A DNA stretch of 64,000 bases, from the NCBI RefSeq assembly GCF_025947185.1, contig NZ_CP110001.1:2914001-2978000 (forward strand), in the 5' to 3' direction. The DNA comes from Flavobacterium sp. N2038 (GTDB lineage: Bacteria; Bacteroidota; Bacteroidia; Flavobacteriales; Flavobacteriaceae). The notes below the pieces were generated by a model that did not search any database, was not told the origin of the DNA, and worked only from the letters and a program-made list of their open reading frames with translations. The translations under genes were made by a program, and so were the position numbers. This document shows positions 21,101 through 34,481 of the stretch, in pieces; positions within the stretch are counted from its first letter, which is position 1; every line of letters starts with the position of its first letter.

Positions 21101-21742
21101 TTGAAATTTTAATTATAAAAAACGAGTCAGAAAGTAATTTGCTTGTAATATTAGGAACATTAATATTTGCGTATGCAAACGAAAATTGCAGATAATGATA
21201 AGGGCATATTTTTAAATCCGTAACTTTTTTAAATGCCTTTTTCGAATTCAAGAATTCCACAAAAAAATGTTACAACTTAATAACATTAAAAATGTATATG
21301 GATTAAAATGTCTTAATTTTTTTAACGTTTAACCCCTACATTACATACAAACCGTCTCCTATTTAGATATCAGATTAATTATCTTACAAAATAACCTCAG
21401 AATAAGCCAATTTCTTTAAATCATTCATAAAATGGTTTGTAAATTGTATCGTAGAGGTCACCACAGCCAAAAGGCGCCATTTGAATATAATTGGCGCCTT
21501 TTTTTATATTATCATTATTCAATAAATAAGTCAACTTCTTTCTATTAGCTAACAACGAAGACAAGGAAGAGGAAGTAAAAAAGGACAAAACAATTAAAGC
21601 AATCACACCGTTTTCTGTAATTTGTTTTTTCTAAAACTCTTTAGCAACTTAAAATCCTTACATTTACCCGCTGGCTAACCAAATTTCGCTGTATAATTAA
21701 TCCATTTAGCGGCGTCAGGTCAATTAACTTTAAGCAGTCAAG
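21101..21742. other. Gene-free stretch before the amidase gene, with a degenerate tRNA-tail-like element
   Basis: About 640 bases of AT-rich DNA. Short frames here (for example 21421-21606 minus) overlap the terminator and look spurious. The only structured part is at about 21427-21505: CATAAAATGGT and TAGAGGTCAC resemble the block at 24600-24634 and are followed by a terminator. Confidence 0.6.
21469..21505 (+). terminator. Terminator at the left edge of the amidase/amidoligase module
   Basis: GGCGCCA pairs with TGGCGCC (extended by A/T pairs) around a 12-base loop and is followed by a T-run. No gene precedes it on this strand for many kilobases, so it looks like the tail of a lost gene. 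GAGGTCAC, the 3' end of the tRNA-Arg gene plus one base, lies just upstream at 21454-21461. Confidence 0.7.
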
Positions 21743-22480
21743 ATGGAAAAACATACTGTAACAGTAGCATCGTTACCTTTAGATGATCATACACTATCTA
21801 ATATTCAGATCAAGAAAGCCAATTTGTTACCAGATCTAAAATCGCAGCTGGATTCTATGGAAATGAAAGAAAAACCGATAATGGATTCTGCCATTCCTTA
21901 TAGGGACCTGACTGATACAGCGAGTAAAAAAGAAAGTATTGCCCGAATAATTGATAAACTGGACGTTGAAACCAGTCTTAGATATCAAAGAACTCCAGAA
22001 GATACCTATTGCAATGTATACGCTTATGATTATTGCTATTTTGCTAAAGTATATCTTCCAACCGTTTGGTGGACTCCCGAATCCCTTGAAAAAATTATAC
22101 AAGGCCAAGATGTAAAAGCTGTTTTTGAACAAACCGTAGACCGTATCTATTCCAGTGCCATACACGACTGGTTTTTAGAATGGGGACCAAATTTTGGATG
22201 GGAAAAAATGTTTACAGCTGAAGAAATCCAACAGAAGGTAAATACCTATGGCGGAATTGGAATAATCTGCGCCAAGAGAAGGGAAAAAGGTCTCTCCGGA
22301 CACATTGTTCCCGTGGTTCCTGAAACCGAATTGCATAAAGCGTACCGCGAAAATGGCATTGTCGTATATCCGCTACAGTCACAGGCAGGAAAACTGAATT
22401 ACAATTACTTTTCGGAAGTGAGAAAAGACTGGTGGAATGATGATTTGTATTCCTCTTATGTGTTTTATTATCACGAATAA
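21743..22480 (+). CDS. Putative papain-like (NlpC/P60-CHAP type) amidase or peptidase
   Basis: A 245-residue protein without signal peptide. Residues 88-104 read TYCNVYAYDYCYFAKVY, with Cys90-Asn91 as in papain-like peptidoglycan amidases (T-[FY]-C-N-x-[FY]-xx-D). Later come HDWFLEWGPNFGW at 141-153 and SGHIVPVVPE at 185-194, with His187 as the probable second catalytic residue. The order Cys, Trp/Gly-rich element, then GHxxxVxP is that of NlpC/P60-CHAP enzymes, which cut or form amide bonds in cell wall or peptides. The first 75 residues are not recognised. It precedes a predicted amidoligase gene (gap 428 bases) and both lie between two related repeat blocks. Function is inferred from motifs only. 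Confidence 0.65.
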   Translation: MEKHTVTVASLPLDDHTLSNIQIKKANLLPDLKSQLDSMEMKEKPIMDSAIPYRDLTDTASKKESIARIIDKLDVETSLRYQRTPEDTYCNVYAYDYCYFAKVYLPTVWWTPESLEKIIQGQDVKAVFEQTVDRIYSSAIHDWFLEWGPNFGWEKMFTAEEIQQKVNTYGGIGIICAKRREKGLSGHIVPVVPETELHKAYRENGIVVYPLQSQAGKLNYNYFSEVRKDWWNDDLYSSYVFYYHE

Positions 22481-22908
22481 AAACGCAATTCGTCATATTG
22501 CTAAACATTAAAAAAAAATACTGATTATCAACGAGATAACTACTTGGAAATACGATAATAAAAAACTAGTTTTGCAACTTAGAAAAAACAAGAACAGCAA
22601 AAGTTGTGATTTAGCCGTTCCCTTGCTTAAATTATTGATACAAAAGCGATTAATAACACTGGTGATTTTATAATTCTATTATAAAATTTTACTCCTTATT
22701 TGATCTTTCCCTCGATAAAAAGTGCGAAATATCTAAAATACAAATTCCTATATTTTTAAAAGTAAACAAAGACTTTTATAATGGAGGCAATAATGTGCTT
22801 AATCCGTTATAGGTTTCCTGTCACTAATGCTAACCGCCGAATTTGTATCTTCAGATGAAATAATGCTTTAAAAATTATAATTAACCTTAAAAAAGAAAGT
22901 AAGTATAA
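22481..22908 (+). other. Spacer inside the amidase/amidoligase module
   Basis: No convincing coding frame, terminator or perfect -7 consensus is visible. The spacer is long enough for the amidoligase gene to have its own promoter, so an operon is not certain. Confidence 0.5.
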
Positions 22909-24450
22909 ATGACAGATAATCAGACAAAAAAATATTATTGGGGAATAGGATTGGAAAACGAAACCTACATGCAATTTGAAGAACCCCTAATAGTTTCTGG
23001 TGAATTTATACAAGAAAAAATTGGTTTTGAGAAATATAGTATTGATTATAGAAAATGCTATAAACCCGAAAGCCTGGCTCCTATGCTGAAAAAAGCTTTT
23101 AACCTGACTGAAAGCTATAAAGTAAGCCGAATGATGAACAGTCATTCGCTGGAAAAGCTCGATATCAATTATCAGCACAAGACATTATCGCCAATAAAAA
23201 CATTAATCAATACGGAAGCCGGTGAAACGATCGCAGAACCGATTGAAAATCCGGAATATCTGGGCAAATCGATCATGGAACTTTTCCTTGAAGATCAGCC
23301 ATACAACATTCAGAGTATGATTACCCAAAGAAACAAAACGATGGGATCTGTACATTTTGATGGTGATTCTATTGAATTTGTAACCAAATATTTTGAAAAC
23401 AGAACAATTACTGATTCCTGCAAAGAATTGAAAGCAACCAAAAAACTGTTTTTGGATAAAATCAACGAATCGTCTGTGTTAAACGGAAAATTAAATTTTC
23501 CGGATTACAACAACGGCCTTAATATGTTTATGACCAATCAGGAAAATCTGGTTTTGTTTAATAACGGAACCTACCATTTTCATATCACCTTGCCGTCATT
23601 AACAGAAGACAGCAGAATTGTGGATTACAATGATTTTGAAAAAACACATGCTAACGCCATTTACCTATTACAGTGGTTTGAGCCTTTTTTTATATCCACG
23701 CTCGGAAGCCCTGATATTATGGGCGTGATCAGTGATAAATACAGTTTAGACAAAAAATTCACTTTAGGTTCAATGCGAAATGCTATGTCTCGTTACATAG
23801 GTGTTGGGACCTATAACAAATCAATGCCAAAAGGTAAAATTCTAACCTATAAGGTGGACAATTTTAGAAAACTACTGAAATTTACAAAAGAAGAAAACAT
23901 CTGGTGGCGCGATCAGATTGAAGCCCACATGGAATATGAAATGCTTTCGGAAGTGGGGCTTGATTTTAATCAGGAAAAAATGTACCAGAGCGGTTTCGAA
24001 TTCAGAAGCTTTGACGAATTCCCGGCGGAGTATTTAAATGATGTTCTTTTTTCTATTATTCTAATTTGCGAACATTCCCTAAACCTGCCTGATGTACAAT
24101 GGGGACATGACAGCAGAATCTGGAATAACCTGGTCTTTAAAACCTTAAAAACAGGTTATGCCACTGAAATCAATGAAGATGAAAAGAAAGAGCTTTTAAA
24201 TTTACTACAGCTATTAAATCCCTCAGATTCTAATTACAGCACACTAAAATCAGAATTGGAAGCCATAATCATGCTGGATGAATTTTTCTTTAAAATTTTA
24301 GCTGTTTTGCATGACAAATACAAGGACAACAACATTTGCCTGGATGCTATGTACGGCCAAAAAACAAGCACACCTCCAAAATGGGACAATTTTAATAAAT
24401 ACCAGACCGAGAGGCATTTAAAGCAAATTGGCTCTTTCTGCGATAATTAA
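22909..24450 (+). CDS. Putative amidoligase (COOH-NH2 ligase, glutamine-synthetase fold)
   Basis: A 513-residue protein. It opens with WGIGLENETYMQF (11-23), the GxExE strand of the gamma-glutamyl-cysteine-ligase/amidoligase superfamily (Glu16, Glu18). A His-x-His pair in TYHFHITLPS (His223, His225) and FEFRSFDEFP with Glu364 and Arg366 are further metal/ATP-site motifs, and LLQWFEPFFISTLGSPDIM (253-271) is a typical helix. This fold uses ATP to join a carboxyl to an amine, as in GCS2, glutamine synthetase and the predicted amidoligases. The substrate is unknown; no carrier or precursor peptide is seen nearby. The gene to its left encodes a papain-like amidase, so the pair could make and break the same amide bond. 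It differs in length and detail from EgtA or GshA. Confidence 0.7.
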   Translation: MTDNQTKKYYWGIGLENETYMQFEEPLIVSGEFIQEKIGFEKYSIDYRKCYKPESLAPMLKKAFNLTESYKVSRMMNSHSLEKLDINYQHKTLSPIKTLINTEAGETIAEPIENPEYLGKSIMELFLEDQPYNIQSMITQRNKTMGSVHFDGDSIEFVTKYFENRTITDSCKELKATKKLFLDKINESSVLNGKLNFPDYNNGLNMFMTNQENLVLFNNGTYHFHITLPSLTEDSRIVDYNDFEKTHANAIYLLQWFEPFFISTLGSPDIMGVISDKYSLDKKFTLGSMRNAMSRYIGVGTYNKSMPKGKILTYKVDNFRKLLKFTKEENIWWRDQIEAHMEYEMLSEVGLDFNQEKMYQSGFEFRSFDEFPAEYLNDVLFSIILICEHSLNLPDVQWGHDSRIWNNLVFKTLKTGYATEINEDEKKELLNLLQLLNPSDSNYSTLKSELEAIIMLDEFFFKILAVLHDKYKDNNICLDAMYGQKTSTPPKWDNFNKYQTERHLKQIGSFCDN

Positions 24451-24598
24451 AAAAAGTATATCTAAATACAAAATGGGTGCAAATTCTGGTAAAAGTGAGA
24501 TAATTTTACATCAATCACCAACTGGACATCCAAACCAAATTGTTTAAGCCATTCAAAGACAGACCTTACAAATAGTAGGTTAATATCTTCAAATCCTC

Positions 24599-24635
24599 CA
24601 TAAAATGGTGCGAAATCTGTCCGTTAGAGGTCACT
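24599..24635 (+). repeat. Direct repeat block B, related to 21427-21462
   Basis: CATAAAATGGT and TAGAGGTCAC occur here and, in the same order and orientation, at 21427-21462; the roughly 36-40 bases between and around them are about three-quarters identical. GAGGTCACT also matches the 3' end of the tRNA-Arg gene at 13655-13663. The two blocks bracket the amidase/amidoligase module. Confidence 0.5.
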
Positions 24636-24674
24636 AAATTAAAATCCCATTTCTAACGGAATGGGATTTTTTTT
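24620..24674 (+). terminator. Terminator with a competing upstream hairpin
   Basis: AAAATCCCAT (24641-24650) pairs with ATGGGATTTT (24661-24670) and is followed by T. TCCGTTAGA (24620-24628) is fully complementary to TCTAACGGA (24652-24660), the terminator loop, so a 9-bp alternative hairpin would exclude the terminator stem. A related terminator occurs at 28179-28213. Confidence 0.7.
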
Positions 24675-24976: not shown

Positions 24977-26047
24977 ATGAACCAAAGAGAAACTGATTTA
25001 ATTAAAATAAAAAAAATTATAACCGAGAAAGACAGTGATGGAGCGTATAAAAAAGCTTTTTCTTTTATTCACACCTACGAAGAAGACGAAGAAATTCTTT
25101 TACTTCTTTGTCAAATCTTCGAATCAGACTGGCACAAGAATCATGAAAATATGGCTCAGACTTTTCAGTATCTTTCAAATCCTATTACGGCAGAAACTTT
25201 ATTTAAAGTAGCATTTTCTGATTTTGAATATATTAGATGGAATGAATATTTTCCTTTACAAAGAAAATGCACTTGGGCACTTGCAGACATAGGTACTAAT
25301 GAGGCTAAAAAATATCTAGAACAAATAGCACAACAAGCCAATGAAACAATAGCTAAATACGCAACCAAAAGGCTGGTAAAATGGGATTTTGAGTTCAGAA
25401 GAAAATTTCCTACAATAGGAGAATCACGCTATGAAGGCTTTGAAATAGCACTTGAAAATTATTCAGACAGGCTAAAAGAGTTAGCGCAAAAAGGACAAGA
25501 TATAATAGGTTATGTCATGAAAAATGTTGCCATTATAGAAACTGCCCCACCATATGATGGTAAAGTAACGGAGTATATTGTATTATATCTGGTTAATAAA
25601 AAAAGTACAGCTGCCACTATTACAGAAAGCCAAGATCTTAAAAAACCTGACTATAGCAGCTTGAAAACAAACACATTGTACCTTAGTTTTCTATCAATAA
25701 TGCACGATTACAGCTCGCGAGAAAAAGAAAATCAGGAAAGTGTATTGGCTCTTTGGATAAAAAAAGAAGTCTTTAAAGAAATTTTACAAAAAGTAACACC
25801 AAATTGGAATCCCGATTATGATTATTTTGGAAAAGAACTCGAAAGACAAACCATTCAACTTGATTTAAACGAAGAGGATTTTGAGAAATTGATAAAAGAA
25901 AAAATTGATTTTGTATTCGACGTTTCTGATTTTATTAAAGAACAAAAACAATATATCGACCAAAATCAGATTGAAAAACTAATGCTTCCTAAAGAAAGAA
26001 TAGTTGATTTTGAAACGCCCGAACTCATTGATGAGCAATGGATGTGA
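24977..26047 (+). CDS. Protein of unknown function with HEAT-like N-terminal helices
   Basis: I do not recognise this 356-residue protein. Its first 140 residues are alpha-helical and contain PBS-lyase/HEAT-like segments (CTWALADIGTNEAKKYLEQIAQQANETIAKYATKRL around 94-130). The remainder is a mixed, strongly charged domain with DFEKLIKEKIDFVFDVSDF. There is no signal peptide or membrane segment. It lies in the accessory island between the amidoligase module and several orphan genes. HEAT-like orphans in such places are sometimes immunity or adaptor proteins, which is speculation here. The reading frame, start and codon use look genuine. Confidence 0.6.
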   Translation: MNQRETDLIKIKKIITEKDSDGAYKKAFSFIHTYEEDEEILLLLCQIFESDWHKNHENMAQTFQYLSNPITAETLFKVAFSDFEYIRWNEYFPLQRKCTWALADIGTNEAKKYLEQIAQQANETIAKYATKRLVKWDFEFRRKFPTIGESRYEGFEIALENYSDRLKELAQKGQDIIGYVMKNVAIIETAPPYDGKVTEYIVLYLVNKKSTAATITESQDLKKPDYSSLKTNTLYLSFLSIMHDYSSREKENQESVLALWIKKEVFKEILQKVTPNWNPDYDYFGKELERQTIQLDLNEEDFEKLIKEKIDFVFDVSDFIKEQKQYIDQNQIEKLMLPKERIVDFETPELIDEQWM

Positions 26048-29767: not shown

Positions 29768-30976
29768 ATGAATAATTTTAGAAAATATAAAGTTCAAAAA
29801 GGTGAAACAATCGAAATAATTGCAGCAAAGATTGGAATTCCTGCTTTTGATGTAAGAGCATATCACAATAAATATTGTGAATTGTCAGATTTAGTAGAAT
29901 TAGGATTGCCTATAAGAAGAGCAGAATATATTTTATTACCTCCCTTAGAGGTGAATACTCAATTAGCTGAAATTAGTACTCCCAAAAAAATCGAATTAGG
30001 TAAAAACAATAGCTTACGTTTATTTGCTTCAAATGGTCAAAAGAAGAAATATGGAACGATAATACTTTATAAAGAAAATAATCAATTAATAAACAAAGTT
30101 CATTTTACTTCGCAAATTGAGTTTTTAAAAAAATACAATGATTTTTCTATTGTAGAATATCAGATTAATCAGGTGTATATAAACAATAAAGAGCCAGAAA
30201 TGGTTATTGAACAATTAGCTGATAAAACCTCTAAGGCACTATATCCAATAGTGATGGCTTTAAATAATGATGGTGAAATACACGAAATACTTAATATTGA
30301 AGTGATACAAAAGAAATGGGAAGTACTGAAACCTTCTATTCTTGAATATTATAAAGGTGGTGATGTTATAACCAAATTACTCTCTTCGTTTGAAAAAAGT
30401 ATTCAATCAGCATCACGATTAAAGAGAAATTTAACTGAACATCCTTTTTGCACTATTTATTTTGCACCTATATATCAAAATTATTCATCTGATTTGTCAT
30501 TTACAAAAAATGATTCTGAATTAGAAATAGTTCAAAGTATTGATGAATTTCAGAGCGCAACATCTAAAATCCTTGTTAGACGTAAGGGAGTTGTAAGATC
30601 CAAAGTAAATTTTGACGAAAATTCAAAGTTACAAGATCAACTACATGATTATACTTCAAAAAATACAGAAATCAATTTAGAGAAAGTAGAATTTCAAGTT
30701 GGAAAGTTAGAAGAAGGAATTCATAACAATATGGATTTTCAATATAAACTACATCATAGTGATAACAGCATATTTTCTATTGTTGGATTTATAAATACAA
30801 GAAAAAACAGTAAAACAATATCTTCTGTCGAGTTTGAAACATACGAAAGAGTAAAGAAAAAAGAACAAAAGGAAGTACAAATTCCAATGTCAAAAGAAAT
30901 AGATTGGAACGCCGAAATTATAAATGAAAAGAGCATAAAAAAGCGAGGATTTTGGGATGAATTTTGGGGTAATTAG
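29768..30976 (+). CDS. LysM domain protein, first gene of the PAAR-like/effector operon
   Basis: A 402-residue protein. Residues 5-58 form a LysM-like domain (YKVQKGETIEIIAAKIGIPAFDV ending in YILLPP), expected to bind glycan or to act as an adaptor. The rest has no recognised domain; a helix-rich middle (SFEKSIQSASRLKRNLTEHP) precedes a charged tail and a Trp-rich end (FWDEFWGN). There is no signal peptide. In Bacteroidota, LysM proteins beside DUF4280 proteins accompany contractile-injection or type VI-like cargo, so it may be a loading adaptor; that role is inferred. It is followed by two DUF4280-like genes after 48 bases. Confidence 0.7.
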   Translation: MNNFRKYKVQKGETIEIIAAKIGIPAFDVRAYHNKYCELSDLVELGLPIRRAEYILLPPLEVNTQLAEISTPKKIELGKNNSLRLFASNGQKKKYGTIILYKENNQLINKVHFTSQIEFLKKYNDFSIVEYQINQVYINNKEPEMVIEQLADKTSKALYPIVMALNNDGEIHEILNIEVIQKKWEVLKPSILEYYKGGDVITKLLSSFEKSIQSASRLKRNLTEHPFCTIYFAPIYQNYSSDLSFTKNDSELEIVQSIDEFQSATSKILVRRKGVVRSKVNFDENSKLQDQLHDYTSKNTEINLEKVEFQVGKLEEGIHNNMDFQYKLHHSDNSIFSIVGFINTRKNSKTISSVEFETYERVKKKEQKEVQIPMSKEIDWNAEIINEKSIKKRGFWDEFWGN

Positions 30977-31024
30977 CAGATGTAATAAAGTGAGCCTAAA
31001 TTAACTTTTAAATTATTATTTAAG

Positions 31025-31384
31025 ATGGTAGATTATATAGTGGTAGATAGTGCGACAATACAATGCAAATACGGAAGTATAGAATCGACTTTTCTAAATT
31101 CAGAAGAGCATGGATTCAAGATTGAGGATAAGAATCCTATACTTGAAAACAATTCAAATATTTGCGATTTTATTTTCTGCAGTCTTCATAAAAAGGGATG
31201 TGAATTTGAAGCGGCAGAAAAAAAATGGATAAATACAGCAAATAGTGGAACTACCGAAGGAAAATACATTACAACAAAATCAGTACTGCTTTGTAAACAA
31301 GGTGGACTTATATCAATTGTTAATTCCGGACAAGACTGTGTTATTGAAGAGGCAGGAAAGTTGAAAATTACAGATCTTGAGTAG
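31025..31384 (+). CDS. DUF4280/PAAR-like protein, short variant
   Basis: A 119-residue protein with DUF4280/PAAR-like features: a Cys-containing first strand (VVDSATIQCKYGS), a central CDFIFCSLHKKGC and the conserved C-terminal SVLLCKQGGLISIVNSGQ. Members of this family cap the spike of contractile secretion systems or bind to it. It is shorter and more divergent than the next gene, so I call it a PAAR-like relative rather than a canonical member. It lies 48 bases after the LysM gene and 38 before the second DUF4280 gene, within one operon. Confidence 0.7.
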   Translation: MVDYIVVDSATIQCKYGSIESTFLNSEEHGFKIEDKNPILENNSNICDFIFCSLHKKGCEFEAAEKKWINTANSGTTEGKYITTKSVLLCKQGGLISIVNSGQDCVIEEAGKLKITDLE

Positions 31385-31422
31385 CTTAATTTTTGCATAA
31401 AATAATTTAATTAATTATAATA

Positions 31423-31890
31423 ATGAGCGAAGTACATTTAGTTTGTCAAGGTGCAATTTGTAAATGCCAATTTGGTACAGCACCCGATACTTTGAAAGTA
31501 AAAACACAAAAGAAACATTATATAAATGATTGGGAAGCAAAATCAAAGTTAACAGCAACCAATAAAGATATTGGACAAACTTTTGAAAAAAATACTTTTG
31601 GAAGTTGCTCAAAAGCAAACAACAGCCCTTGTTCTCCAACAATTACCAAATGGGACGGCTTTTATGATAAAATTACTCTGAGTAATAATGGTAAGCCTTT
31701 ATTAGAAAATAGTAAAGCAACTTGTGCCGTAGCGGGAAGCGCGTGTATTGAAATTATAAATCCTGGACAAACCTGTGAAGTTACCAAGCAAAATATTAAA
31801 AATTCTGATCCCGAAGTCATTAAGGTAATTAATCCGGCAATGAATTTAAGTATTGACGAAGTTGGAGAATTGCAAATACCTAACCCGTAA
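31423..31890 (+). CDS. DUF4280 (PAAR-like) protein
   Basis: A 155-residue DUF4280 protein. The N-terminus VHLVCQGAICKCQFGTAPDTLKV is the family signature, followed by FGSCSKANNSPCSPTITKWDGF, then PLLENSKATCAVAGSACIEIINPGQ, with the usual Cys pattern. DUF4280 proteins are proposed PAAR-like tips that link toxins to a type VI or extracellular contractile injector. Here a large protein follows after only 5 bases, the classic order tip then cargo. No sheath, tube or baseplate genes are present in this window, so any injector must be encoded elsewhere. Confidence 0.86.
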   Translation: MSEVHLVCQGAICKCQFGTAPDTLKVKTQKKHYINDWEAKSKLTATNKDIGQTFEKNTFGSCSKANNSPCSPTITKWDGFYDKITLSNNGKPLLENSKATCAVAGSACIEIINPGQTCEVTKQNIKNSDPEVIKVINPAMNLSIDEVGELQIPNP

Positions 31891-31895
31891 ACAAA

Positions 31896-34481
31896 ATGAA
31901 CGATAACAAATTAAATCTAATTCCAGTATTAGAAAAAGGGCAAACTTATGATGCCTCAACCGGAACTCTTATTTTAAATAATGAAGGTTCTGTTTTCGTG
32001 ACTATCAAGCAGTATCAGGAGGATGAAAAAAAGATAAAAGAATTAGAAAAAAAGAAGAAAAGTTCAATTGAATTTGCCAGACAAAAATGGGAACAGCGTG
32101 CAAAAGAAGGCTGGAGTGAAAGAAAATTAAAAGAAAATTATGAAGCCAATATGCAGGATTGGGAAAAATTGAATAAAGAATCCCAAGCTCTTATAGAGAA
32201 ATATGAAAATATAAATTGGTGCTGGCAGTTGGTTGGTAATAAATTAGATTACAACAAATTATCTCATAATGAATCCTTTAGTAAAGGTATTTCTCAAATA
32301 ATAAGTAATGGCAAACAAAAGGTTCTATTTCCTGCACTTTTGGTAGGAGGCGGAATGGCTTGGCTTGAGGCATTTGATGAAAAAGAAGGTCCATCTGGGA
32401 AAATACCAAATGGAATATTAGTAAAAGCAAAAGGGATACCTAAAATATTGCGAACACAATGGACAGATTTCGAATATCAGCCAATTGTTGGAAGTATTGG
32501 TTTTATGTCGAAGGTAATATTACATATCTATACTTCTGGCATGTATGGACAAGAAGTAGAAATAAAATTAATAGACCGCGATTTGTTTACTGGTAACGAT
32601 GAATTGACTTTCTCAGGTAAATCTACTTTTGAACGTGAAGTGAATGTGTTAAAAGCGAAGAAAAATGATTCTGGTAAAATACAGGTTTCTGAATTGATAA
32701 AAAGTGGACAAAGTACAACAGATAATATTATAGAAAAAGAACAATATGTTCAAAAAATAGAAGTAGAAATATTTGTTGATGCCAATTGGGGAAAAGAGGG
32801 TGGAAAAGAATTAAAAATTTTTCCTACTATAAAATCAATTGAGACTGATGTCTATTTTGAAGACTTTGATAGAACTTATTTAAGTGTTGTAAAAAATAGT
32901 CTAATTCTTGACGCACCTAAAGAAGTAAGTAATAATGTTTCAATAATTGGTGCTGTAGAAACGAATGAAAGTGCTTATCATCCTTGCAAGTACAATGCAA
33001 TTGAATTGAAAATAATTCCTGAAACCGAAAAAGAGAAAAACAAAATTATTTTCAAAGAAAGGAATATGGTAAGCCCTCTTACATACAACATACCTATTAT
33101 TTGTGCAGATACAGATCACTTTAAAGATTATGCAATAGAATTAAACGATCTGGAAACAAAAGAATGTCGATTTAATGGCAAATCTAATGATCACGGAAAA
33201 AGTACTATAAACATATTAAAAACTCCTGAAAACTATCAAATAACCAAAAATGATGGTAAAACATTAAATTTTAAAGCTGCATTTAATTATCATCCTAGCA
33301 ATGATAATCTTATCGAGATGACCTCTCTTAAAATGTTTGAGTATATTTGGCCTGTTAGTCTGCGGGATGATAATAACCATGCTTTAGAATTGAGAGCTTT
33401 ATCTTGTAGACATGACAAAAGAATAAATATAATTGCTTATCCTGATGTAAAATGGACATTGGATTTTAGATTTGGAATGAAAGGCCCTGAACAGTACACA
33501 CATACAAATCTTCCAACCTACCCAAGAAACAGCGATGAAGAGAAAGCCGAAAAAAAGCCTCAATCCAGACATAGTGATTCTTTTGAGAAAGCTAAAAAAG
33601 CGGGACGAATTAATACCTATGGCATGGAGAAAAGAGCTAATGGAATGGAACTAGAGTTTCAATTAGTTCTTAAAGCAGAGTATAATAAAGGCGAAGAAAT
33701 AGAATTAGCAGATAAATATGCTCAGAAAATAAAAAAATTTTTGGAACTACTTTTGTCATTGAAAGAAGGTTTAGACACATTAACCAATATTGATAAAATA
33801 AACTCCGGACACAAGAGTGCTGTCAAGGGTCTTGGAAAATTTTTAAAATCACCAATTGTCGGTACAATTGATTATCCTGCCATCAGCGTTGGAGCAAAAT
33901 GGCAAGCAGCAATAAAAGATGAAACAAATGAAGTCTATACTGATGGAAAGATTGCTTTAAGATTTAATCCTTTATTAAAGGGAGATATTTCATTAGATAT
34001 AATAGCTGCAGTTTCTTATGTTCCTGCATTTGGCCAGGCGGTAAAAGCGATTGAAATAGCATTAAATACTGCCGGAGCTGAATTAAACTTTATGCTTACA
34101 ATATTTGGACAAGTAAATGTAGAATTCGAATATGCACTTGCAGAAAAAGGTGGTTCTAATCTAAATTTAAATGGTGAACTTGGACTCAAACTAGTTTTAT
34201 CCGGGAAAGTTAAAGTAAATTTAAATGCTATAGTTTTCAGTGTGGATGGCGAGATCCAAGCTGAAGCATATGCTGTTACATCTATAAAGCCTAAAGCAAG
34301 CATAGGACATGATAAGAAAGGAACATTTGTAGAAGCTAAATGTGATTTTATGGGAATTAATATTGTATGCATTATAACAGCAAAAGGTAAAAACAATCAA
34401 ATACAATATAAAGACACATACAATGTTTTAGATAGAAAAGATGATTTTGTAAAAGGTAAAAAGTATTTGATAGAATCATGA
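31896..34481 (+). CDS. Large effector-like protein (861 aa) downstream of PAAR-like genes
   Basis: I do not recognise the whole protein. Residues 40-110 are a charged helix (KKIKELEKKKKSSIEFARQK and on), about 195-310 looks like an Ig-like beta domain (HIYTSGMYGQEVEIKLIDRDLF), followed by further beta-rich modules up to about 590. Residues 690-730 contain two hydrophobic amphipathic helices (ISLDIIAAVSYVPAFGQAV and IALNTAGAELNFMLTIFG). The last 120 residues are alternating beta strands (NLNLNGELGLKLVLSGKVKVN). Helical hairpin plus strands suggest a membrane-active or pore-like end, as in some type VI cargo; this is inference. It overlaps the next gene by ATGA, so translation is coupled. No signal peptide, as expected for an injected protein. 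Confidence 0.62.
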   Translation: MNDNKLNLIPVLEKGQTYDASTGTLILNNEGSVFVTIKQYQEDEKKIKELEKKKKSSIEFARQKWEQRAKEGWSERKLKENYEANMQDWEKLNKESQALIEKYENINWCWQLVGNKLDYNKLSHNESFSKGISQIISNGKQKVLFPALLVGGGMAWLEAFDEKEGPSGKIPNGILVKAKGIPKILRTQWTDFEYQPIVGSIGFMSKVILHIYTSGMYGQEVEIKLIDRDLFTGNDELTFSGKSTFEREVNVLKAKKNDSGKIQVSELIKSGQSTTDNIIEKEQYVQKIEVEIFVDANWGKEGGKELKIFPTIKSIETDVYFEDFDRTYLSVVKNSLILDAPKEVSNNVSIIGAVETNESAYHPCKYNAIELKIIPETEKEKNKIIFKERNMVSPLTYNIPIICADTDHFKDYAIELNDLETKECRFNGKSNDHGKSTINILKTPENYQITKNDGKTLNFKAAFNYHPSNDNLIEMTSLKMFEYIWPVSLRDDNNHALELRALSCRHDKRINIIAYPDVKWTLDFRFGMKGPEQYTHTNLPTYPRNSDEEKAEKKPQSRHSDSFEKAKKAGRINTYGMEKRANGMELEFQLVLKAEYNKGEEIELADKYAQKIKKFLELLLSLKEGLDTLTNIDKINSGHKSAVKGLGKFLKSPIVGTIDYPAISVGAKWQAAIKDETNEVYTDGKIALRFNPLLKGDISLDIIAAVSYVPAFGQAVKAIEIALNTAGAELNFMLTIFGQVNVEFEYALAEKGGSNLNLNGELGLKLVLSGKVKVNLNAIVFSVDGEIQAEAYAVTSIKPKASIGHDKKGTFVEAKCDFMGINIVCIITAKGKNNQIQYKDTYNVLDRKDDFVKGKKYLIES

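Follow-up and report, generated by a model that had tools for sequence, protein, structure and literature searches.

What is made, and what is cleaved, by a two-gene locus that encodes a putative amide-cleaving peptidase ahead of a putative amide-forming ligase? We addressed this question for such a locus in Flavobacterium sp. N2038 by computational analysis of a stretch of 64,000 nucleotides (contig NZ_CP110001.1, positions 2,914,001 to 2,978,000; hereafter the window, in which positions are counted from the first letter). The two genes are as follows.

21743..22480, + strand: peptidase gene, 245 aa, papain-fold peptidase/amidase, Tae1-like, with C90, H187 and, as the third residue, perhaps Q212
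22909..24450, + strand: ligase gene, 513 aa, carboxylate-amine ligase of the glutamine-synthetase (GS) fold

The two open reading frames (ORFs), the five motifs and the two related repeat blocks that an initial annotation had placed here were all present. The ligase probably forms and the peptidase probably cuts amide bonds, and both enzymes probably act on the same substance.

The evidence for the pairing comes from its distribution, which displayed strict co-occurrence and adjacency in two orientations. The peptidase profile found 89 of 398 Flavobacterium genomes, and the ligase matched 90, of which one (G301, a match of 77 residues at E 1.9e-4) was dropped, resulting in the same 89 genomes and in none with one gene alone. 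The genes were adjacent in 88 of the 89: in 72 (the main group) they share a strand and the peptidase precedes the ligase, and in 16 (the convergent clade) they are convergent. In the remaining genome (G284) both were kept, 334 kb apart. The initial annotation's proposal of a self-contained unit of a papain-fold amidase and a GS-fold carboxylate-amine ligase was thus borne out by adjacency as well as by the folds and motifs described below. Identical sets would have a chance of 3e-91 under independence; however, linked genes are not independent, and the case for pairing therefore rests on the occurrence of two orientations and on the one genome in which the genes are split but both kept. In a separate search of genome contigs, 125 stretches were matched, 117 of which held relatives, and the peptidase lay directly before the ligase in 79 of the best 80 of these 117. 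The sole exception was a contig that begins 246 bases before the ligase (L059); this contig and one with the peptidase end only, at its edge (L100), were left out of the peptidase counts.

The pair was rare outside the genus, being found in 1 of 249 genomes of the family sample (the own genome of the window), 8 of 296 of the order sample and 6 of 296 of the phylum sample, all of them Flavobacterium. A few relatives bear other names, such as Fluviicola, Cryomorphaceae and Glaciecola. The chromosome of Glaciecola amylolytica (L099), a record named as a gammaproteobacterium, carries the pair with a ligase that groups with that of a Flavobacteriales metagenome-assembled genome, and this reflects either a transfer or a mislabelled genome. 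The ratio of nonsynonymous to synonymous substitution rates (dN/dS), determined against seven hand-picked relatives, was 0.08-0.17 for the peptidase and 0.03-0.08 for the ligase, indicating that both genes are under purifying selection. Furthermore, the divergences of the two proteins were correlated, with an r of 0.86 over 79 rows that was equalled by none of 999 permutations.

The predicted structure of the ligase folds like YbdK/glutamate-cysteine ligase (PDB 1r8g and 1tt4) at 11-14% identity, and that of the peptidase has a papain-like fold in a Tae1-like arrangement (PDB 4fgi) with a Cys-His dyad, so that each protein has the kind of structural match that the initial annotation had called for. 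The ligase carries GLENE (14-18), HFH (223-225) and FEFR (363-366), and G14, E16, E18, H223, E364, R366 and D369 were invariant in 36 aligned ligases. When compared with the features listed for the carboxylate-amine/ammonia ligase superfamily of the GS fold in PMC2588565, the GhExE signature was found as G14-L-E16-N-E18 on core strand 1 (strand 12-19; invariant in the 36, the pattern present in 96/96 relatives), the [HD]x[NH] signature as H223-F-[HN]225 on core strand 4 (strand 221-227; 96/96), and the Ex[RK]xxD signature as E364-F-R366-S-F-D369 on core strand 6 (strand 363-369; invariant in the 36, the pattern present anywhere in the protein in 96/96). FDGDxxE was also present in 96/96 ligases, and R290 and R295 were invariant and may be the Arg residues expected on strand 5 and in the loop preceding it. 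The GS fold and the catalytic motifs of the 513-aa protein are thus well supported, and it would accordingly be a ligase that uses ATP to join a carboxylate and an amine.

Its initial assignment to the glutamate-cysteine ligase/amidoligase group held with respect to the GS fold and motifs, but not for GCS2 membership by sequence, for which there was no detectable match. The ligase had nothing above the cut-off in Pfam or NCBIfam and no match in PADLOC or PHROGs; PF04107 (GCS2) was absent among the eight Pfam families matched by any of the 36 ligases at E 1, and a search of the own genome with it gave no match. A profile-profile comparison (hhalign) did not connect the ligase with GCS2 proteins, of which 13 from Bacteroidota were used (prob 0.2). 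The best PDB sequence match was an archaeal RNase P component (E 0.0041 over 73 residues, with an NCBIfam echo at E 0.056), which was taken to be due to chance because a profile of the 36 ligases finds nothing in the PDB. At 98% identity, F. pectinovorum and F. sp. Root186 had the nearest ligases, and the two Flavobacterium ligase clades were 33-36% identical to each other.

The closest structural kin of the ligase, by a search of predicted viral structures, were giant-virus proteins, indicating that the ligase family is shared with giant viruses. The best matches were those of Dasosvirus (A0A3G4ZUC6; E 6.6e-36, 30% identity, TMq 0.80) and Yasminevirus (A0A5K0U889; E 2.2e-35, 26% identity, TMq 0.79), which belong to Klosneuvirinae, and after them came a Mimiviridae protein at 16% and, over only 174 columns, mimivirus R704a at 34%. 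Kinship with phage 'amidoligases' was rejected, as these were far behind the giant-virus proteins, with an E of 0.028 or worse and a TMq of about 0.2. By sequence, no relative of the ligase was found by tblastn in plasmids and phages or in the first viral-contig scans. Of 16 viral-contig stretches picked out by a motif scan, one encodes a ligase relative (profile E 1.5e-81), and of nine picked out by a second motif, none does. The ligase relative of IMG/VR contig 3300032270_002105 (L222/L244) was 33% identical to that of the window, and it is hence about as distant as the two Flavobacterium clades are mutually; it has ExRxxE where the bacterial ligases have ExRxxD. It is encoded by a gene of a large DNA virus (L244:2568-5300; 911 aa) and is fused to AlaDh_PNT_N (556-681, E 1.8e-13), and the contig also encodes a PIF1 helicase-uracil-DNA glycosylase (PIF1-UDG) fusion and the small chain of ribonucleotide reductase. 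In an unrooted tree of 29 ligases, there were three deep clades on branches of about 4-6 changes per column, and we therefore make no claim for the direction of transfer between viruses and bacteria.

In the peptidase, C90-N91 and GHIVPVVP (H187) were present, and C90, N91, G186 and H187 were invariant in 47 aligned members, as was QSQAG in the family, Q212 being perhaps the third catalytic residue. The initial annotation had placed this protein among NlpC/P60-CHAP amidases, and of that placement the papain-fold amidase stood, whereas a generic NlpC/P60 or CHAP identity gave way to Tae1 and phage-contig lysins, which were closer. Nothing was above the cut-off in Pfam or NCBIfam, no match was obtained in PADLOC or PHROGs, PDB sequence searches gave no result, and PF10030 was absent among the 17 Pfam families matched by any of the 47 at E 1. 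The profile did find L165-L170 at E 9e-20 to 9.5e-57, and proteins of Azospirillum and Hymenobacter plasmids were relatives at 36-42% identity. A wider unnamed family of Tae1-like peptidases was accordingly seen in phage contigs, plasmids and Bacteroidota genomes (L165-L170, L180-L182, L171 and L172), some members being fused to SH3 or GH19 domains, with a catalytic domain that has no Pfam match. The convergent-clade peptidase is longer, and at its N-terminus there is an SH3 domain (SH3_3, E 1.3e-9 at best), observed in 10 of the 47 aligned rows, which take in 10 of the 16 members of that clade.

We tentatively favour the reading that one of the two proteins makes and the other breaks an amide, carried by peptidoglycan-derived peptides or a similar metabolite. 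The ligase would activate a carboxylate with ATP and join an amine to it, the product being likeliest a gamma-glutamyl-type amide by fold and motifs, and the peptidase, which is related to phage lysins and Tae1 and would act in the cytosol, would hydrolyse the same class of bond. In this manner, the pair may add and remove, or exchange, an amide that is carried by peptidoglycan precursors, recycled muropeptides or a chemically similar metabolite, and the two-enzyme module would need no other genes of its own. A cytosolic location is suggested for the pair, with no signal peptide visible by eye. Peptidoglycan-derived peptides are suggested as the substrate by the kinship with lysins. Several points weigh against this reading. 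It is built on folds, motifs and genome context; a substrate does not follow from a fold match, and for neither enzyme was there a match to the Pfam family nearest to it in fold. Linkage makes genes travel jointly, and co-occurrence is therefore independent evidence only in the orientation change and the split genome. The peptidase family occurred without the ligase in three of the nine positive genomes of the 296-genome phylum sample. No peptidase of the Flavobacterium family was found in 14.1 kb around the viral ligase, which means that the ligase may work without it. Finally, the main-group peptidase lacks the SH3 domain, and peptidoglycan binding may be lost there.

A bolder form of the make-and-break reading, which we consider quite unlikely, is that the gamma-D-glutamyl bond in peptidoglycan precursors or in recycled muropeptides is rewritten by a captured cytosolic DL-endopeptidase of the phage-lysin type, which cuts it, and a GS-fold ligase of the family found in giant viruses, which re-amidates with another amine. 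If true, cell walls would thereby be edited by a new route, and giant viruses would possess its ligase half as an enzyme that conjugates amino acids on its own.

Among the other explanations, the one that survives best, albeit a doubtful one, is a metabolite or polyamine cycle like that of glutathionylspermidine synthetase/amidase, in which a small gamma-glutamyl-type conjugate would serve storage or redox defence and be recycled by the peptidase, with no part for peptidoglycan. The fusion of the viral ligase to an amino-acid-dehydrogenase-like domain and the main-group peptidase without SH3 leave room for such a free metabolite, against which stands the lysin kinship. An unlikely explanation is a conflict module, in which the lysin-like enzyme would be a toxic effector, acting on the cell itself in phage attack or delivered by a type VI secretion system (T6SS), and the ligase would supply control or protection chemistry. 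Its peptidase kin are lysins and Tae1, it is a relocating, patchy unit (89 of 398 genomes), and there is a DUF4280 gene 6.6 kb downstream in the window; however, the genes are strongly conserved with low dN/dS, neither protein matched a PADLOC 2023 family at E 10, the main group has no constant neighbour, 16 genomes hold the pair at a fixed place beside threonine-biosynthesis-like genes (by eye), and no small immunity-type gene is constantly present. Protein tagging, by which proteins would receive a peptide or an amino acid from the ligase and lose it again through the peptidase, as PafA and Dop do with Pup, is very unlikely, since Pup-type ligases rank below the YbdK and glutamate-cysteine ligases that head the match list, and no carrier-like ORF is present in the window intergenic region or among constant neighbours. 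That two unrelated enzymes are linked by hitch-hiking alone can hardly be credited: each enzyme is found elsewhere without the other, but the pair is retained in two orientations and when split, and, the dropped G301 match aside, none of the 398 Flavobacterium genomes has one alone.

Two conserved enzyme families without a curated name are now tied by genome evidence strong enough for a bench test. If the make-and-break reading is true, a large soil and water genus would have a cell-wall modification or a conjugated metabolite that is new, and a chemistry could be assigned to giant-virus proteins now called uncharacterised.

The surroundings of the two genes define the extent of the unit.

21579..24473, + strand: conserved unit common to other Flavobacterium loci, with differing flanks, from blastn extents and neighbour families
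21409..21461, no strand: left repeat block, 75% identical to the right copy, with a terminator-like hairpin after it (by eye)
24582..24634, no strand: right repeat block, from the repeat comparison with the left, with a terminator-like hairpin after it (by eye)

The blastn similarity to the window ended shortly upstream of the peptidase and shortly downstream of the ligase, with starts at 21550-21818 (one exception, cut by a contig end) and ends at 24437-24634 in the first 40 loci. The repeat blocks, which bracket both genes, were 75% identical over 53 nt, and blocks related to them flanked the cassette, at one end or at both, in L031, L032, L034, L035 and L036. In L032 the block (53 nt plus terminator hairpin) is present additionally 6 kb from the cassette, whereas in the own genome it stands out in the two copies only. 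An integron-type attC identity was rejected, as the core sequence did not fit by eye. An empty insertion site was sought through the left neighbour gene in 13 relatives, in which the best matches were only 31-40% identical and hence gave no orthologue.

No further gene family was present within 5 kb in more than 19 of 94 loci, and there was no constant third gene (at least 90 aa) within that distance of the pair. The nearest neighbours of the main-group cassettes (151 genes) fell into 100 families, the largest with 12 members; the pair is thus a self-contained module that moves. Three of the 100 families, whose example proteins are longer than 900 aa, were dropped, and among the 97 analysed Pfam gave no recurring function, the commonest being in 3 of 97 (25 of 117 Pfam families listed). 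A defence-island setting was rejected, as the 35 PADLOC families among the 97 neighbours, of which the 25 seen had one member each, included no repeated system in a comparison without a control. In the convergent clade, three neighbour families were present in 16/16 loci, and the pair has a fixed place beside thrA-, thrB- and thrC-like genes (named by eye from translations of 6 of the 16 loci). In G284 the peptidase has a 179-aa gene on one side and a GNAT-like gene on the other, with the ligase elsewhere, and genes like these two neighbour the convergent-clade peptidase on one side (by eye). In the window, the cassette is adjoined by a gene (24977-26047) for a 356-aa protein with a DUF4291 match (E 6.3e-16) and a weak HEAT match, found in the own genome alone among 110 loci within the stretches compared. 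Farther on, the stretch 29768-34481 holds a DUF4280 gene together with another ORF that is DUF4280-like (by eye), an ORF of 861 aa and a weak LysM match below the cut-off, and it resembles an effector island of a contractile injection system.

Two features lie ahead of the ligase gene.

22544..22574, + strand: Flavobacterium-type promoter-like site TTG-N20-TAGTTTTG, the site being present in 61 of 68 intergenic regions
22592..22620 (22592-22598 with 22614-22620), + strand: inverted repeat or possible 5' hairpin at the start of the ligase leader, directly after the promoter-like site

A TTG-N16-24-TAnnTTTG site, which resembles a Flavobacterium-type promoter, was present in these 61 of 68 intergenic regions longer than 300 nt (window included) compared with 2.4% of plain shuffles, mostly with a spacer of 20 and about 330-350 nt upstream of the ligase. 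The site and a leader of 323-350 nt (22544-22908 in the window) were conserved in 55 rows, namely the window and 54 of 68 loci tried, selected for 300-360 nt; in 8 of 80 rows the genes are separated by just 40-69 nt, too short a distance for the long leader. In the inverted repeat, 91.3% of cells were paired in 36 rows, with 12 cells changed on both sides, and one of the seven pairs in the window is an A-C mismatch (by eye). Taken together, the promoter-like site and the inverted repeat make it probable that the ligase gene is served by a promoter of its own and preceded by a long leader, which is possibly a 5' regulatory element or operator. RNAalifold gave 0 pairs on 36 ligase leaders, the fold z-score of the window leader was -1.19, and Rfam gave two matches over the locus, both below the gathering score; we therefore claim no leader structure beyond the short 5' inverted repeat. 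Nine ORFs of at least 15 aa are present in the window intergenic region, none ending in GE or GQ as sought for a carrier peptide, in agreement with the initial annotation, which had seen no carrier.

Compared with known systems, the ligase is like the YbdK/GCS2 ligases (PF04107) in fold and unlike them in sequence. The giant-virus proteins are of the same ligase family as the Flavobacterium one, and the viral contig protein differs by its AlaDh_PNT_N fusion; a literature search for giant virus and amidoligase gave no title on the viral ligase among the matches listed. The peptidase shares its fold with Tae1/Tse1, a T6SS peptidoglycan amidase, but has no PF10030 match, and its partner is a ligase, with no constantly linked T6SS or immunity gene. 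PMC10318531 gives Cys as the third site of Tae1 and PF10030/DUF2272 as its family name, and the invariant QSQAG may be equivalent to that Cys position. The lysins of phage contigs (L165-L169) are 33-41% identical to the Flavobacterium peptidase, and two of them (L165 and L168) have the SH3-peptidase architecture of the convergent clade; unlike the Flavobacterium pair, L165, L167, L168 and L169 have holin or terminase genes nearby, and no ligase was present in the contig stretches examined. Precedents for the pairing are known in predicted papain-fold/ligase fusions, in ligase-peptidase neighbourhoods and in glutathionylspermidine synthetase/amidase (PDB 2io7), which pairs an amide-forming with a papain-fold amide-cleaving activity. 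A larger survey of amidoligases was reportedly made by Iyer and colleagues in 2009. A full-text search for amidoligase and Flavobacterium gave no title on the present pair among the matches listed. PMC2588565 predicts fusions of a papain-fold domain with a carboxylate-amine ligase (Rv2566) and neighbourhoods of ligase and thiol peptidase. The likeness to those systems lies in a functional pairing predicted from genome context, and the difference in that the papain domain of the fusion, as described there, is transglutaminase-like and joined to its ligase, whereas Flavobacterium encodes the two enzymes in separate genes.

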